DNA of 44,236 nt from Planktothrix sp. PCC 11201 (GTDB lineage Bacteria > Cyanobacteriota > Cyanobacteriia > Cyanobacteriales > Microcoleaceae), in the NCBI RefSeq assembly GCF_900009135.1, contig NZ_LT797701.1:72230-116465 (forward strand), in the 5' to 3' direction. Positions within the stretch are counted from its first letter, which is position 1. Each line of letters opens with the position of its first letter. The position numbers and the translations under genes were made by a program. A model generated the notes under the pieces. It did not search any database. It was not told the DNA's origin and saw only the letters and a program-made list of their open reading frames with translations. Positions 18,408 through 25,905 of the stretch are shown piece by piece.

Positions 18408-20939
18408 TTAATTGGGAATATCTTCTAATCTAAAAGTTCTCATTCCTTCCCCGGATAAATGCTCTCTAACAATCCTACTTTTGAGACGTTGTACCATTTT
18501 TTCATAAAGGTTTCTTACCTCTCGACCATTGCCAAAATTTCGCCCTCGATTTTCATACATATCTCTAAATATTATTAACAATCTTGCTGATACTTCTGGG
18601 GTAACTATCCACCCCCCTTGCTGACCCATTCCTAAACAAATTTGATGCAATTCTTCTCCGGTATAATCGGGAAATTCAATAATATTACCAATTCGAGATT
18701 TAATCCCTGAATTTGCATTCATAAACCCTTGCATTTCTAGGGTATATCCTGCTAAAATAACAATTAGGCGATCGCGTTCATTTTCCATCATGGGTACTAA
18801 CGTATCAATCGCTTCTTTTCCAAAATCTTGACCCGCATCACTCCGACTTAACGCATAAGCTTCATCAATAAATAATACCCCATCTAGGGCAGATTCAATA
18901 ACTTCTTTCGTTTTTAAGGTCGTTTGTCCTATATATCCGGCGACTAAATTACTGCGATTTGCTTCAATAAAATGCCCTTTTTCTAATAGTCCCAACGCCT
19001 TAAAAATTTGCCCAATTAATCGCGCTACCGTTGTTTTTCCCGTCCCTGGATTTCCTGTAAATAATAGATGGCGAGTTTGCTGACCTTCATGAATAGAAAT
19101 TCCCGCTTCTCTTAATTGTTGATTGGCTAATTGTTCATTAACAATTTCTTTGATATTCTGTTTCACAGAATCTAATCCGGTTAATCGATCTAATTGTTGT
19201 AATAACTCCTGTAAAACCTGCTCATTTTTTCGAGATTCTTGGCGATATTCTGGGGGTAAATCTTGAAGTTGAAAAGGTTCTTGTAACGGTTCTAAATTCT
19301 GCTGAATTACACGCTGAGAACGCAATTGATCCATTTTGTCAAATAAATTTTCCACCACCCCCGCATTGCCAAAATTCTGATCCCTTCGTCTATATAAATC
19401 CGTAAATAAACTAACTAAAGCTAATTCTAATTCCGGTGTCATCGAACACTGTAACCGTGATAACCGTTGTTGAAAAATAGCCAACAATTCCGAGGGAGTA
19501 TAATCTTCAAAAATAATCGTAGTTGGTAAGCGACGTTTTAACCCTGGATTACTTTCTAAAAATTCATTAATATTATCAGGATATCCCGCAATAATTACCG
19601 CCAGTCGATGACGTTCATCTTCCATTCTTTTTAGCAAAGTATCAATCGCTTCCTGACCAAAATCATTATTTCCCCCTTGACTTAAGGTATAAGCTTCATC
19701 AATAAATAATACCCCATCTAAGGCTTGATCAATCACTTCATTGGTCTCAATTGGGGTTTGTCCTATATATCCAGCGACTAAATCCTGTTTAGCAACTTCT
19801 CGAACATGACCCCGTTTTAATAATCCTAAATCTCGATATATTTCCCCAATTAATCCCGCTACGGTGGTTTTCCCTGTACCCGGATTTCCGGTAAAGATTA
19901 AATGGAGACGGGGTGGGTCGGTTTGTTGTCCTTGTTTTTGACGTTGTTGTTGTACAATTAGCTGGGGTATTTGTTGACTAATTAAGGTTTTGACACTCGA
20001 TAAACCAATCATTTGATTTAACCTTTCTAAAGCGGGTTGGGTGCTAATATCCGCAACAAACCAACGCTTTGCTTTTGCTTGAGTGAGGGAAATTTCAGGA
20101 ACAATTTTAAACCGATGATACCAAGTCTTTAGAGATTGGTTTTCCGCCGATATCCATTGGGAGAGTTGATTAAGATTTTTCCAAACTAGGGTTTTTTGTT
20201 CCTGTAACCGAAAATACTGTTGTAAGTTATTAATTTCTTGAATATCGGGAGAGGAGAGGCGAACTAAATTTAGGGATTGAGTTGTAGAATTATCTCGGTT
20301 TCTGATATAATTAGACAGGAGAGTGAAACCAATGCGATCGCAATATTCTTGCAATTTGGCAATAGTTTCATGGTGAGAAATAAAAATACACAGGTTACAA
20401 TTCTGCGGAGGTAAACGTAACCAATTAACAAACCGCCCAAATAGTTCGCGGTGATTAGCAAATTGTCCTAAATCTTCCGTATTAGTAAAAATAATTACGG
20501 ATTTTTGGTTAATATCCTGCATGACAGTTTCAAAAATAGGCAGAATATTAACATCTTGTAATCGAGTTGGAGCATTGCTGGTTGTTGGTTGGGGTGCGAC
20601 TGTTGGTGCGGGAGTTTGTCGCCCTAATAATCCCCGTTTTCTTCCTAATGAACCGGAAAATCTAAGTTCTTGACAAGGGGCAGAATTATTGTTAGATTGA
20701 GTTTGGGGAAGACAGCGATCGCGGGATACTTTATCTAAGAAATACAGTTTTTCCACTCCTGAATAAAACAGGATTCTTTGATAACCTTGGGATTGTAAAT
20801 AACGATGTAAAACCTGTTCGATATCTTGTAATAATAAATCTGGAGTGCAGAAAGTATCGCTAGTATTAGTTCCGTAGAAGATAAAAAAGCGATCGCCTGA
20901 ATCTAAATTTAACCATGAGGTAATTCGTTCAACAGTCAT
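18408..20939 (-). CDS. Protein with two CbxX/CfqX-type AAA+ ATPase domains
   Basis: 843 residues from the ATG at 20939. A longer frame from a TTG at 21008 would add 23 residues encoded by the neighbouring repeat element, so the ATG start is preferred. Residues 1-290 form an unrecognised N-terminal region (FFIFYGTNTSDTFCTPDLLL; YQRILFYSGVEKLYFLD) with a Pro-rich linker near 108-126. Domain 1 has Walker A GNPGTGKTT (351-359) and Walker B VLFIDEAY (410-417). Domain 2 has Walker A GNPGTGKTT (629-637) and Walker B VLFIDEAY (688-695). Both carry the AGYIGQT pore-loop-like signature of the CbxX family, which includes rubisco activase CbbX and type VII secretion EccA. The protein is likely a cytosolic remodelling ATPase; the target is unknown. 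Confidence 0.9.
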   Translation of the reverse strand: MTVERITSWLNLDSGDRFFIFYGTNTSDTFCTPDLLLQDIEQVLHRYLQSQGYQRILFYSGVEKLYFLDKVSRDRCLPQTQSNNNSAPCQELRFSGSLGRKRGLLGRQTPAPTVAPQPTTSNAPTRLQDVNILPIFETVMQDINQKSVIIFTNTEDLGQFANHRELFGRFVNWLRLPPQNCNLCIFISHHETIAKLQEYCDRIGFTLLSNYIRNRDNSTTQSLNLVRLSSPDIQEINNLQQYFRLQEQKTLVWKNLNQLSQWISAENQSLKTWYHRFKIVPEISLTQAKAKRWFVADISTQPALERLNQMIGLSSVKTLISQQIPQLIVQQQRQKQGQQTDPPRLHLIFTGNPGTGKTTVAGLIGEIYRDLGLLKRGHVREVAKQDLVAGYIGQTPIETNEVIDQALDGVLFIDEAYTLSQGGNNDFGQEAIDTLLKRMEDERHRLAVIIAGYPDNINEFLESNPGLKRRLPTTIIFEDYTPSELLAIFQQRLSRLQCSMTPELELALVSLFTDLYRRRDQNFGNAGVVENLFDKMDQLRSQRVIQQNLEPLQEPFQLQDLPPEYRQESRKNEQVLQELLQQLDRLTGLDSVKQNIKEIVNEQLANQQLREAGISIHEGQQTRHLLFTGNPGTGKTTVARLIGQIFKALGLLEKGHFIEANRSNLVAGYIGQTTLKTKEVIESALDGVLFIDEAYALSRSDAGQDFGKEAIDTLVPMMENERDRLIVILAGYTLEMQGFMNANSGIKSRIGNIIEFPDYTGEELHQICLGMGQQGGWIVTPEVSARLLIIFRDMYENRGRNFGNGREVRNLYEKMVQRLKSRIVREHLSGEGMRTFRLEDIPN

Positions 20940-20966
20940 ATTATTAGGGATGAATATATTAATAAA

Positions 20967-21139
20967 CCCGTAGGGGCGGGTTCCGTACAAATTTATGTTT
21001 CCCACCAATAACTATCATAAACCCGCCCAAACCCACCATGAATTTTCAATTGCTGATGAAATTTTGGGGTAGGGTCAGGGGCGGGTTTAGATAAATTATT
21101 TCTGAGTATTCAAGGTTAACTCGAACCCGCCCCTACGGG
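20967..21139. mobile_element. MITE-like element, copy 1 (173 bp)
   Basis: The ends CCCGTAGGGGCGGGTT and AACCCGCCCCTACGGG are perfect 16-bp terminal inverted repeats. The internal sequence matches copy 2 at 21887-22088 in the same orientation. It lies directly upstream of the AAA+ gene start and supplies a false upstream start. It is non-coding and probably mobilised in trans or by recombination. Confidence 0.85.
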
Positions 21140-21211
21140 TGATCAAATATTCCTTATATGTTATATTATGGAGAATCTCAAACAGATAGTGTAGCGATCG
21201 GGAGTCAACCC

Positions 21212-21484
21212 ATGCAAGCGATCCTTCTAAGCCGTGAAGAAGTTGCGCGACGTGCAAAGCAACTGTACGAGTGCGGAATCCGTCAACAGGTCGATATCGA
21301 CGAAAACCTTGGCAAAATGGTGATCATCGACATTGAAACCGGTGATTATGAGGTCGATAAAACTGGGTTGCAAGCATCACGCAACCTTAGCAAAAAGCAC
21401 CCAAACGCCCGCCTCTTTGGTATTCGCATCGGCTACAACGTTGCTGTTTCATTTGGTGGTGTCATGGAGCGTGTCTATCAGTGA
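21212..21484 (+). CDS. Small partner protein of the aspartic peptidase
   Basis: 90 residues from the ATG at 21212, which has a good ribosome binding site (GGGAG seven bases before it). An upstream ATG at 21158 would add 18 unlikely residues. It begins MQAILLSREEVARRAKQLYE and contains the acidic VIIDIETGDYEVD and the charged SKKHPNARLFGIRIGYNVAVSFGG. No domain is recognised with certainty. Its stop overlaps the start of the peptidase gene by 4 bases (GTGA), so the two are translationally coupled. Higher GC and different codon choice than neighbouring genes, plus the flanking repeats, suggest acquisition. Confidence 0.75.
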   Translation: MQAILLSREEVARRAKQLYECGIRQQVDIDENLGKMVIIDIETGDYEVDKTGLQASRNLSKKHPNARLFGIRIGYNVAVSFGGVMERVYQ

Positions 21485-21846
21485 TTTCTGGAATCGTGAC
21501 AGATAGACATCCAACTGTCGCGCTGACGTTTTTGTTGCCAAATGGCTCAAGCATACCCATTGAGTTTGTTATAGATACAGGTTTTACAGGAGAACTGTGT
21601 CTTCCAATAGAAGCGGTTTCATTGATGGGCTTACCCTTCAGACACGATACTCCTGCAAACTTGGCAGATAACAGTGAAGTCCTGCTGCCAATTCACGAAG
21701 CCACCGTCCTGTGGGATGGTGAAGAACGAGAAGTCCTGGTTATTGCTACAGGGAGACGACCCTTGCTTGGAACTGCTTTATTGGATGAGCAAGAACTCGT
21801 CATTCAATTTACAGAAGGCGGGTTGGTGACAATCGATCAGTTGTAA
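21481..21846 (+). CDS. Clan AA (retropepsin-like) aspartic peptidase
   Basis: 121 residues starting at a GTG that overlaps the upstream stop (GTGA). The active-site motif IEFVIDTGFTGELCLP (about 26-41) has the D-T-G triad. A second typical strand, HEATVLWDGEEREVLVIATGRRPLLGTALL, contains the LLG motif before the final helix. One-domain proteins like this dimerise to form the active site. Cyanobacteria carry many such genes, often with a small partner upstream as here; the function is unproven. The pair sits between two direct copies of a MITE-like element. Confidence 0.85.
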   Translation: MISGIVTDRHPTVALTFLLPNGSSIPIEFVIDTGFTGELCLPIEAVSLMGLPFRHDTPANLADNSEVLLPIHEATVLWDGEEREVLVIATGRRPLLGTALLDEQELVIQFTEGGLVTIDQL

Positions 21847-21886
21847 ATACCAATCTAGCGTGAGGCAGCACAGGCTAACAATACAA

Positions 21887-22088
21887 CCCGTAGGGGCGGG
21901 TTCCGTACCAATTTATAATTCTCAGCGATAACTATTATAAACCCGCCCGACCCCGCCATGAATTTTAAATTACTGATTCAATTTTGGGGTGAGTCAGGGG
22001 CGGGTTTAGATAAATTATTTCTGAGTCAGGGGCGGGTTTAGACAAATTATTTGTGAGTATTCAAGGTTAACTCGAACCCGCCCCTACG
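21887..22088. mobile_element. MITE-like element, copy 2 (202 bp, with a 32-bp internal duplication)
   Basis: It has the same ends as copy 1 (right end 14 of 16 bases) and the same orientation. The segment starting GAGTCAGGGGCGGGTTTAGA is present twice in tandem here but once in copy 1. It ends four bases beyond the stop codon of the FGE-fold gene, on the side of that gene's putative variable region. Confidence 0.85.
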
Positions 22089-22092
22089 AATC

Positions 22093-23553
22093 CTAGCCAG
22101 CAAAGCAGGAGGCAACCCGAAACCCGCAGACGTTGAAGCAGTAGTCGGGATGGTTCCAGTTACGATTAGCAGAACGGCAGAGATCGGGATCGGAGTACCA
22201 CGAACCGCCCCGCAAACAACGAATTCTTCCGTAATCCAATAAATAATAGTTGACTAAATTTTCAACGCTGTAAACTTGATAACGATTATCATTCTCATGT
22301 AGATTATCCCAAACTTTCCCTAGAATTGGCGCATCAGCATAGCTGTCATGCCAAGGATCGGCGCACCATTCCCAAACATTGCCATGGAGGTCACACAACC
22401 CAAAGGCATTGGGGGAAAACTCCCCGACGGGATTAGTTTGCTTGCGATATTGCCCCGGGGGTTCGCTGGCATAGATGATGCTGCCGTTATAGTTGGCCAA
22501 CTGACTGGTGATCGTTTCCCCAAAGTAGAACGGCGATGTAGTTCCAGCGCGACAGGCATATTCCCATTCCGCCTCACTGGGTAAGCGATAGGCTGTTCCT
22601 GTGTCTTTATATAGTCTAGCACAAAATTCTACGGCATCATACCAGTTTACATTTTCTACAGGTCGGCGATCGCCTTTAAATTTAGAAGGGTCTGGTTTTA
22701 GGTCACGGCGAACTTTCGGTAAGTTAGCAACCCGTTTCCATTGGGCTTGAGTAATAGGATATTTGCCCATCAAAAAAGCTGAAACGGTAACTTGATGTTG
22801 GGGTTTTTCGTCAGCACTTCCTTCCCCCTCGGGTGCACCCATCAAGAACGTCCCACCGGGAATAGACACCATTTCTAAAATGATATTGTTGCCTAAATCT
22901 TCCAGAAATTCTTGGGCTTTTTGGGCTTGAGAATTAATAATTTGTCCATGACGATTAACGGTAAGTGCTACAAAACTAAATTCTTGCAGTTTTATCTTTA
23001 AAGACGGGGGAGGTTCGGGAATTGGTTCTTCTATTTTAGCAGCTTCGAGTTGGGTTTGAATCGCCGTTAACTGTTCATTAATGGGGGTAAAAAAATTGAG
23101 TAAGGTTTGCGGGGTTACGATTTCTTGGGCTAATTTTTCCTGATATTCTATTTGAGATTGGTTTAACTGATTAACTTGGGTTTGGAGTTCCTGACGTTCT
23201 GCGGTTGCGGTGGTCAGTTGTTGTTGAATTATTGTTAACTGTTGGGTGAGAGTAGAGATAGATTCTGTCAACTGTTGGCTGGGAACTTGGGAAAATTGAT
23301 CAAATTTATCCAGAAGTTCGGTTAACTGTTGTTGAGCAGCAAGTTGTTGTTGATTTAGTTGATCTTGCAGGGTTGTTAATTTTAACCATGCCTGTTTTGC
23401 CCAATTGAATTTAGCTTTTTCCTTAGCAATAAATTCATTAGGGATATGTCCAAGGAAAGTCACGGGATAGGGCGTTAAATCCCATCCACAAGTTGTACAG
23501 AAGCTAACTTGATTTTCTGTATATTCTGTTTGACAGATGGGACAATTAGCCAT
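22093..23553 (-). CDS. Zinc-ribbon/coiled-coil/FGE-fold protein, putative DGR target
   Basis: 486 residues. An N-terminal zinc ribbon (C4, C7, C19, C22) is followed by a long Gln/Leu coiled coil (about 50-170). A formylglycine-generating-enzyme/sulfatase-modifying-factor fold (C-type-lectin-like) spans about 222-486, with IPGGTFLMG, RLPSEAEWEYACRAG, GNVWEWCADPW and RGGSW. The last 40 residues (from W452) carry many codons of the form NNC/NNT (TAC, TCC, GAT, CTC, TAC, TGC, TTC, GTC, TGC) at sites where relatives have AAC/AAT asparagines. This pattern fits adenine-specific mutagenesis of a diversity-generating retroelement target. The protein probably binds a ligand rather than making formylglycine. 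No reverse transcriptase is in the window. Confidence 0.85.
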   Translation of the reverse strand: MANCPICQTEYTENQVSFCTTCGWDLTPYPVTFLGHIPNEFIAKEKAKFNWAKQAWLKLTTLQDQLNQQQLAAQQQLTELLDKFDQFSQVPSQQLTESISTLTQQLTIIQQQLTTATAERQELQTQVNQLNQSQIEYQEKLAQEIVTPQTLLNFFTPINEQLTAIQTQLEAAKIEEPIPEPPPSLKIKLQEFSFVALTVNRHGQIINSQAQKAQEFLEDLGNNIILEMVSIPGGTFLMGAPEGEGSADEKPQHQVTVSAFLMGKYPITQAQWKRVANLPKVRRDLKPDPSKFKGDRRPVENVNWYDAVEFCARLYKDTGTAYRLPSEAEWEYACRAGTTSPFYFGETITSQLANYNGSIIYASEPPGQYRKQTNPVGEFSPNAFGLCDLHGNVWEWCADPWHDSYADAPILGKVWDNLHENDNRYQVYSVENLVNYYLLDYGRIRCLRGGSWYSDPDLCRSANRNWNHPDYCFNVCGFRVASCFAG

Positions 23554-24689: not shown

Positions 24690-25905
24690 AAATGCCCTTT
24701 TGCAAAGTGCTACACCCTGTAATCCCAAAGATACCGATGATTTAAGTCGTTGTTTAATGGGAAAATTAAACATCCTTGATGCGATAGAATACTTAACAGG
24801 AGAAACCATGTCCGAAGGATTAGAATTAGAAAGCGTAGAGGCTTCTGGTTGTGGTTGCCAAGAGACTCAAATTAACGAGTCTGAACTTGATAGTGAACTA
24901 CAACCCGCATCGGAAATAAACCCCGATGAAATAGTTGCTTCTGTGACGACCCAAACCCCGATTAATATTCCCTCATTCCCTCAACAAATTACAACCCAAC
25001 CCGTTATGTCCAATCGTACCTCAAATTTTGTGACTGCCAGTGAAGCCCCCAGCGAACTCGAAGGCAAAAACTTAGTTTATGCTTTAGGTGTTTTGGGTTA
25101 TGATTTCGGTTCAGAAGCCCGCAGAGATTCCTTTAAACAACTGATGCCAGGAGTTAGTATTGAAGGAACAATGATTCCTGCTAATCCCTACGATGCTCGG
25201 CAAATGGTAGATTATTTAGGAGAAAATTTACCCGAAGCTAAAGCGTTAATTTGGACACTTAATTTAGAGTTAACTCCTATTTATGCCATTGAACCCGTAG
25301 GCGGTTTTTCCCGAGATGTTTATGAGGTTTTACAATCACTTTTAGACGGGCAAATTCAAGAAGAAAATAATCCCGAATTTGTGCAACGAGTTAGTATTCC
25401 TGGTGTTTTAACCGGACGTAGTGTTAAGTTATTCTCAGGACAAGTTGTTCCGGTAATTGAAATTAATAATACTCGTGGTTTATACGGCTGGAAAGTTAAT
25501 ACCTTAGTCAGTGCCGCAATTGAAAGTGTGCAAGCTGAAGCTGGTGATGCTCAAGAAGATGCCATTCGCCGCACCTTAAGCAGCTTCTTAAATCGGATTT
25601 ATTATGATTTACGCAACTTAGGTACAACCTCTCAAGACAGAGCTTTAAATTTTGCTTCTACAAATGCTTTCCAAGCCGCCCAAACCTTTGCTCAAGCGGT
25701 GGGTGCAGGTTATGAATTAGATAGTATTACCGTAGAAAAAAGTCCTTTCTGTCGTTTAGATAGCGATTGTTGGGATGTGAAATTAAAATTCTTTGACCCG
25801 GAAAATAGCCGTCGCGCCAAAAAAATCTATCGCTTTACCATTGATGTTAGCGATACCATTCCTGTCACCTTGGGTGAAGTTCGTTCTTGGTCAAGCGCTT
25901 ATTAA
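24685..25905 (+). pseudogene. Truncated PatA-like cyanobactin protease (C-terminal part)
   Basis: The frame opens with VKNALLQSATPCNP...RCLMGKLNILDAI, the typical end of a subtilisin (S8) domain. It has no Asp/His/Ser catalytic parts, so the peptidase is lost. A linker with SGCGCQ follows (about residue 50 of the readable frame). Then comes a domain running from NLVYALGVLGYDFGSEARRDSF to the end that resembles the C-terminal unknown-function domain shared by PatA and PatG of cyanobactin pathways. PatA cuts the leader from the precursor peptide. The order PatA-PatB-PatC matches the genes that follow. A shorter product from the ATG at 24808 is possible. The truncation sits beside an ISAs1 remnant. 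Confidence 0.7.

Follow-up and report, generated by a model that had tools for sequence, protein, structure and literature searches.

A probable orphan variable region in Planktothrix sp. PCC 11201, related to a retroelement template from another Planktothrix species

The end of a 486-amino-acid protein encoded in the window (the whole stretch of 44,236 nucleotides analyzed here, from Planktothrix sp. PCC 11201) is very probably the work of a natural DNA-mutating system, a diversity-generating retroelement (DGR). In our judgment this tail is likely an orphan variable region (VR), written in the past from a template of the lineage that we call TR-B and now fixed. The preliminary description, made from the letters alone, had proposed a DGR-type VR at the end of a protein with the FGE/C-type-lectin fold, and our analysis supports that proposal. 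It had also taken the VR for a remote target; the DGR that the genome carries today has another template, TR-A, which the tail does not fit.

The window protein and the codons of its tail

The gene lies on the minus strand (22093..23553), and its product consists of a Cys4 zinc ribbon, a long coiled coil, and a C-terminal FGE (C-type-lectin) domain that bears the VR, as judged from the sequence, PF03781, and a structure model. The zinc-ribbon-like motif CPIC...CTTC, read by eye, occupies amino acids 4 to 22 (23488..23544); Pfam matched the FGE domain alone and gave no match for the zinc-ribbon part, which together with the coiled coil may form the platform for signaling or binding that the preliminary description suggested. 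A coiled coil is predicted at amino acids 39 to 141 (23131..23439), where the AlphaFold model has two long helices (39 to 89 and 92 to 141; pLDDT of 43 to 78 in blocks of ten). The FGE-sulfatase domain spans amino acids 227 to 481 (22111..22875; PF03781, E=1.1e-56). In a Foldseek search of the PDB, with the model used for fold assignment alone, this part matched PvdO, and the Treponema denticola variable protein 1, TvpA (2y3c), ranked third (E=1e-16). The window protein resembles TvpA in having an FGE-like C-type-lectin fold, with 24% identity between the two. TvpA is presumably the target of its own template in T. denticola.

The last 33 codons before the terminal ASCFAG encode RGGSWYSDPDLCRSANRNWNHPDYCFNVCGFRV, which is the VR (22114..22212). 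Its RGGSW...GFRV frame runs from 22212 down to 22114 and is followed by the post-VR tail ASCFAG and the stop codon (22093..22113, stop at 22093 to 22095). The VR thus sits at the 3' end of a gene with the C-type-lectin/FGE fold, as is expected of a DGR target. The codon string reported in the preliminary description was confirmed; it runs TGG TAC TCC GAT CCC GAT CTC TGC CGT TCT GCT AAT CGT AAC TGG AAC CAT CCC GAC TAC TGC TTC AAC GTC TGC GGG TTT CGG GTT and includes the varied codons TAC, TCC, GAT, GAT, CTC, CAT, TAC, TGC, TTC, GTC, and TGC and the interleaved CGT TCT GCT AAT CGT and GGG TTT CGG GTT. These 11 varied codons do all end in C or T, as described there, but this is weak as evidence for a DGR: 8 of the 11 residues have NNY codons only, and with the codon usage of 16 ORFs in the window, the probability that such residues would be encoded by NNY throughout is 0.08. 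A third-place C in 8 of the 11 is less expected (P=4e-5). We regard the comparison with a template, the TR-B of another Planktothrix genome, as the strongest sign of DGR writing in this VR.

The resident retroelement and the search for a matching template

The genome (G000) has one complete DGR, on contig C29, made up of a reverse transcriptase (RT), Avd, the TR-A template, and a TPR-FGE target protein of 958 amino acids. The RT (352 amino acids) contains LPIGNLTSQ and YVDD, which we take to be hallmarks of DGR RTs, and the Avd gene matches NF033474 at 140 bits against a cutoff of 80; TR-A adjoins both. A TR-A search of the genome returned TR-A itself and three tails, one on C29 and two (C19:158k and C19:235k) in remote targets on the contig of the window gene, more than 60 kb away from it. 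Over 99 nt, the C29, C19:158k, and C19:235k tails differ from TR-A at 12, 24, and 6 of 28 adenine sites, respectively (42/84 pooled), and at none of the other sites (0/71 each, 0/213 pooled), which puts 12/12, 24/24, and 6/6 of their differences at adenines; over 105 nt, the non-adenine count is 0/231. Homology to TR-A stops at the same point, CCTGCGTG, in C29 and C19:235k, and C19:158k has one change 8 nt before that endpoint. The heavily mutated C19:158k tail resembles Nostocales tails such as RGGSWSFSPELCRSASRSWNEADGGLRICGFRVV in several varied positions.

An RT on contig C23 was rejected as a second DGR RT. It encodes 338 amino acids directly upstream of an ORF that by eye reads like, and is presumably, Cas1 (L025:7321-9415), and it is probably a CRISPR-associated RT. 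The remaining RVT_1 matches in the genome are 26 to 34% identical to the DGR RT.

Could the window tail be an active remote target of TR-A? It is 67% identical to TR-A over 99 nt, which passes the >50% template identity that PMC7517822 gives as its rule for remote targets, and it differs from TR-A at 17/28 adenine sites against 16/71 other sites (Fisher 4.2e-4; the Fisher tests here and below assume independent sites). The 16 non-adenine differences, set against 0/213 in the three true targets, contradict this assignment, and both the TR-A type ending and the tract that follows the stop codon in other targets (see below) are absent at the window. TR-A therefore did not write the window tail, and its being an active TR-A target is extremely improbable; the identity rule would give the tail to TR-A, and the non-adenine sites exclude it. 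The preliminary description had suggested searching the genome for a template beside a DGR RT, and it would have given up a remote VR if there were neither and close strains showed the same residues or mutations not biased to template adenines. An RT and a template do exist, along with two remote targets, but the template does not match the window VR at non-adenine sites, and the mutations are not confined to its adenines, which is a part of that refuting outcome.

The C29 RT could still act in trans with a second template, one missing from the assembly or overlooked by us, and this would make the window tail an active remote target after all. Both the DGR RT and Avd are intact in this genome, and its assembly is in 103 contigs (99.71% complete), from which a template could be missing. 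A DNA search of the genome with the window VR returned the window itself, the C19:158k tail, and a chance match that is not an FGE tail (C19:169324, L014, BLAST E=0.05); it returned no second template and also missed TR-A, hence its sensitivity is limited. A precedent for action in trans comes from G007, which has a DGR of the same type. Its template (L186:7588-7709) has a 4-nt deletion relative to TR-A, and a tail on another contig (L189:9339) copies this template over 115 nt, deletion included, with 7/27 adenines changed, all from A to G, and the other bases unchanged. The copied deletion puts the target out of frame, and its presence in a remote gene shows that the DGR acted in trans.

Against a second template in the window genome, a translated search with the tail peptide recovered the window, the three targets, and TR-A, the last serving as a positive control, and found no further template; its one other match (C23:133089, E=0.3) has no RGGSW...GFR frame. 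A TR-B DNA query of the genome found the window and, by chance, a Thr/Pro-rich gene (C19:331502) but no template, and a 24-base pattern with up to three mismatches returned the window alone. No matching template was thus found within the 103-contig assembly. Searches of plasmids and phages with the window VR, and of viral contigs with an 18-base piece common to the window and TR-B, gave no match. The downstream tract common to the other targets is also missing at the window, and we consider a hidden second template unlikely.

TR-B as the nearest template

When 61 genomes of the family were searched with the DNA of the window VR, 5 of them had matches, among them the window genome. The best template found was TR-B of Planktothrix G001, an N-rich stretch (RGGSWINNPDNCRSANRDRNTPDNFNNNNGFRVCWVVGAS) adjoining a DGR RT that has 73% identity with the C29 RT. 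Between TR-B and the window tail, 15/26 adenine sites and 7/73 other sites differ (Fisher 2.4e-6), and the 22 differences fall on codon positions 1, 2, and 3 in the numbers 11, 8, and 3, i.e., 19 at positions 1 and 2. Such a concentration at adenines and at the first two codon positions, relative to the template of a related DGR, is what an orphan VR should display. As a control, we compared the 113 codons upstream of the VR with five relatives, and position 3 changed most in all five (5/5). The shift to positions 1 and 2 in the VR is significant against the four relatives that have a TR-B type VR (p from 6e-5 to 5e-3) and not significant against L195, which carries a TR-A type VR (p 0.11).

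Of the seven non-adenine differences, two fall on AAC codons of TR-A that read ATC or GAC in TR-B; judging from this alignment, they may be private to the G001 template. Others among the seven may reflect template divergence, as TR-B comes from another species, or later decay. Several observations do count against the orphan reading. Adenines account for 15 of the 22 differences to TR-B (68%) and for 17 of the 33 to TR-A, both below the >80% that PMC7517822 gives as its rule for calling a template/VR pair; the exact template was not found; and the ASCFAG ending fits neither the TR-A ending (VSLPPAWTL) nor the TR-B ending (CWVVGAS).

FGE tails without any DGR also show some enrichment of differences at adenine sites. 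In five FGE tails from Nostocales, where nothing points to a DGR, 17 to 19 of the 26 TR-B adenines differ (Fisher 1e-3 to 4e-2), because those codons vary anyway. The window tail could accordingly be an ordinary FGE-family C terminus that no DGR ever touched, its RSANRN...GFRV match being a family resemblance. RGGSW...GFRV is found throughout the family, and Nostocales tails such as RGGSWSFSPELCRSASRSWNEADGGLRICGFRVV have L, C, W, N, and the C before GFR in common with the window. The other sites tell against this explanation, which we regard as very unlikely. Compared with TR-B, the window has 7 non-adenine differences versus 26 to 32 in the five Nostocales controls, and 3 third-position differences versus 18 to 24. 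Compared with the window itself, the Nostocales tails shown differ at 16 to 22 of 33 third codon positions, versus 3 to 4 in Planktothrix tails of TR-B type. In a set of 77 same-length tails from other cyanobacterial loci, which left out Planktothrix L057 and L127, the fewest non-adenine differences to TR-B were 11 and the median was 28.

At the level of the order, 388 genomes were searched with two candidates scored per genome; 72 genomes yielded matches, none of which came closer than those in Planktothrix. They include several DGR tails from other genera, and one match, L216 (G150), reads like a template. L062, L069, L113, and other Nostocales loci have VR-looking FGE tails that are near-identical across many genera (RGGSWSFSPELCRSASRSWNEADGGLRICGFRVV).

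Tails, downstream tracts, and exchange across Planktothrix

The state that we propose for the window tail appears to be common in the genus. With one genome per species compared, a DGR RT of this type occurs in 3/10 Planktothrix genomes (G000, G001, and G007), and 16 VR-like tails occur in 6 of the 7 genomes without this RT. Twelve of these 16 tails match TR-A or TR-B at Fisher p<1e-5, the exceptions being L184, L185, L196, and L199. The six tail-bearing genomes are at least 97% complete, and the seventh, G006 (73% complete), yielded no tail of this kind. Our tail finder demands a RGGSW-like...GFR frame; L189 and L188 escaped it, and the latter was included manually. Queries of the six tail-bearing genomes with TR-A and TR-B returned the tails and two broken pieces but no recognizable template. 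These pieces, L242 (G003:C100) and L254 (G008:C3), are of TR-A and TR-B type and lie outside any intact FGE gene.

The template type has also switched at one target. The TPR-FGE gene is present in seven genomes, with a TR-A type tail in six and a TR-B type tail in G002. The G002 gene (L182:7071) and its G001 ortholog (L200:8391) are near-identical until 13 to 14 nt before RGGSW, are identical at 58/99 VR sites, and become near-identical again at the stop codon, through the tract and the GCGCGTCAGCGCG hairpin. Read from this alignment, the template type switched at an orthologous target between the two.

A pyrimidine tract follows the stop codon in 16 of 25 Planktothrix tails counted (43 to 49 pyrimidines in 50 nt) and is absent in 9 (28 to 34 in 50). 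The window, with 32 in 50, is among the latter; interspersed repeats start 4 nt after its stop codon (21885..22088), in the place of the tract. In the three RT-bearing genomes the tract is found in 8/9 counted tails (all eight other VRs), with the window as the sole exception, and in the RT-less genomes it is found at 8/16. A hairpin stands behind the tract in many targets by eye, and an automatic finder gave mixed stems. According to PMC3240598, efficient homing in phage BPP-1 requires a sequence immediately downstream of the VR and can do without those upstream; by analogy, the Planktothrix tract may play a similar role, and if so the window lacks the signals that a target has just downstream of its VR. 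Tractless VRs (9) have more non-adenine differences than tract-bearing ones (16) (Mann-Whitney p=0.004; 0.007 minus the window), in a count that includes L185 and L199, which also have indels, and leaves out the frameshifted L189. There are two counterexamples, L187, with 13 differences and a tract (it is one codon longer, and its ungapped count is inflated), and L198, with 2 differences and no tract.

The window gene also has a recombined C-terminal part. It is identical to its G004 ortholog at 924/1020 nt over amino acids 1 to 340 and at 226/375 from amino acid 341 to the end (22093..22533), where it also has a 21-codon insertion; the neighboring AAA ATPase is 94% identical between the two genomes. 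This part is nearest (74 to 75% of DNA over 450 nt) to the TR-B-tailed genes of G007, G001, G003, and G002. As far as the alignments indicate, the C-terminal part was exchanged in one of the two, the window gene or its G004 ortholog.

The ATPase, of SpoVK type (18408-20939; TIGR02881, 503 bits, cutoff 423), is a neighbor of the FGE gene in G000 as well as in G004 and is a possible partner of the FGE protein. In the window, two small genes without a Pfam match lie in between (21158-21846), flanked by two copies of a 106-nt repeat (20965-21070 and 21885-21990), and the second gene is aspartic-protease-like by eye; in G004 the gap from FGE gene to ATPase gene is just 578 nt. On the other side, an ORF at 24700-25905 aligns with the profile of the PatA/PatG cyanobactin maturation protease (TIGR03895) from its position 197 onward only and is possibly a truncated gene.

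We propose the following order of events for the orphan VR. A past DGR with a TR-B lineage template, as in G001, would have reverse-transcribed the template with random changes at adenines, and the mutated copy would have overwritten an FGE gene at its 3' end; the C-terminal part written in this way would now sit on the zinc-ribbon/coiled-coil protein. The TR-B template would then have been lost from the genome, leaving a sole DGR with TR-A, and the target-marking tract downstream of the tail would have disappeared. With the TR-B template absent, the remaining DGR carrying TR-A, and the tract gone, the tail should no longer change by retrohoming. It would be inherited as a fixed surface, probably one selected for binding, with a ligand that we presume.

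Orphan VRs as a kind are already known. According to PMC4891356, T. denticola isolates that lack both RT and template retain leftover targets, and the target VR of SP32 fits a template type foreign to its own genome, as the window VR does. The window differs from these leftovers in phylum, target architecture, exchanged C-terminal part, and lost 3' tract, and its foreign-template match is weaker (15/22 differences at adenines versus 19/21 in SP32). In Nostoc, the paralog all3226 retains remnant template-VR homology, and PMC7517822 suggests that diversifying parts are removed after selection. The window gene resembles the remote variable proteins of cyanobacteria in that paper, with a C-terminal CLec/FGE module bearing the VR and dispersed paralogs; its main text does not mention Planktothrix. 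Thiohalocapsa PB-PSB1 has remote and incomplete DGR loci, and diversification in trans was judged there by a perfect non-adenine match (PMC10907252). Its DGR 1 has a VR that no longer varies, as we propose for the window VR; population reads show activity there, whereas the window is known from one genome. Titles and abstract openings of literature on Planktothrix and retroelements held nothing on this subject, and the Planktothrix case and the template switch were not found in the literature searched.

Leftover VRs are easily mistaken for active remote targets, and a simple identity threshold would assign the window VR to the wrong template. The Planktothrix set provides natural experiments on DGRs outside phage. 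One is the orthologous target with a switched template type between the same flanks; a second is the G007 template with its 4-nt deletion, whose copy in a remote gene demonstrates that a DGR acted in trans. With this set one could also test if a target's accessibility to rewriting depends on the downstream tract. More broadly, we speculate, at somewhat less than even confidence, that two interchangeable template lineages, TR-A and TR-B, serve the same FGE targets, which all share a 3' tract; that Planktothrix species exchange templates, RTs, and targets; that a foreign template can rewrite a target wholesale and loss of the tract locks it; and that the window tail is such a locked, adopted product. 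If this is true, the DGR would breed fixed receptors on the scale of a genus, beyond its role as a diversifier within strains.
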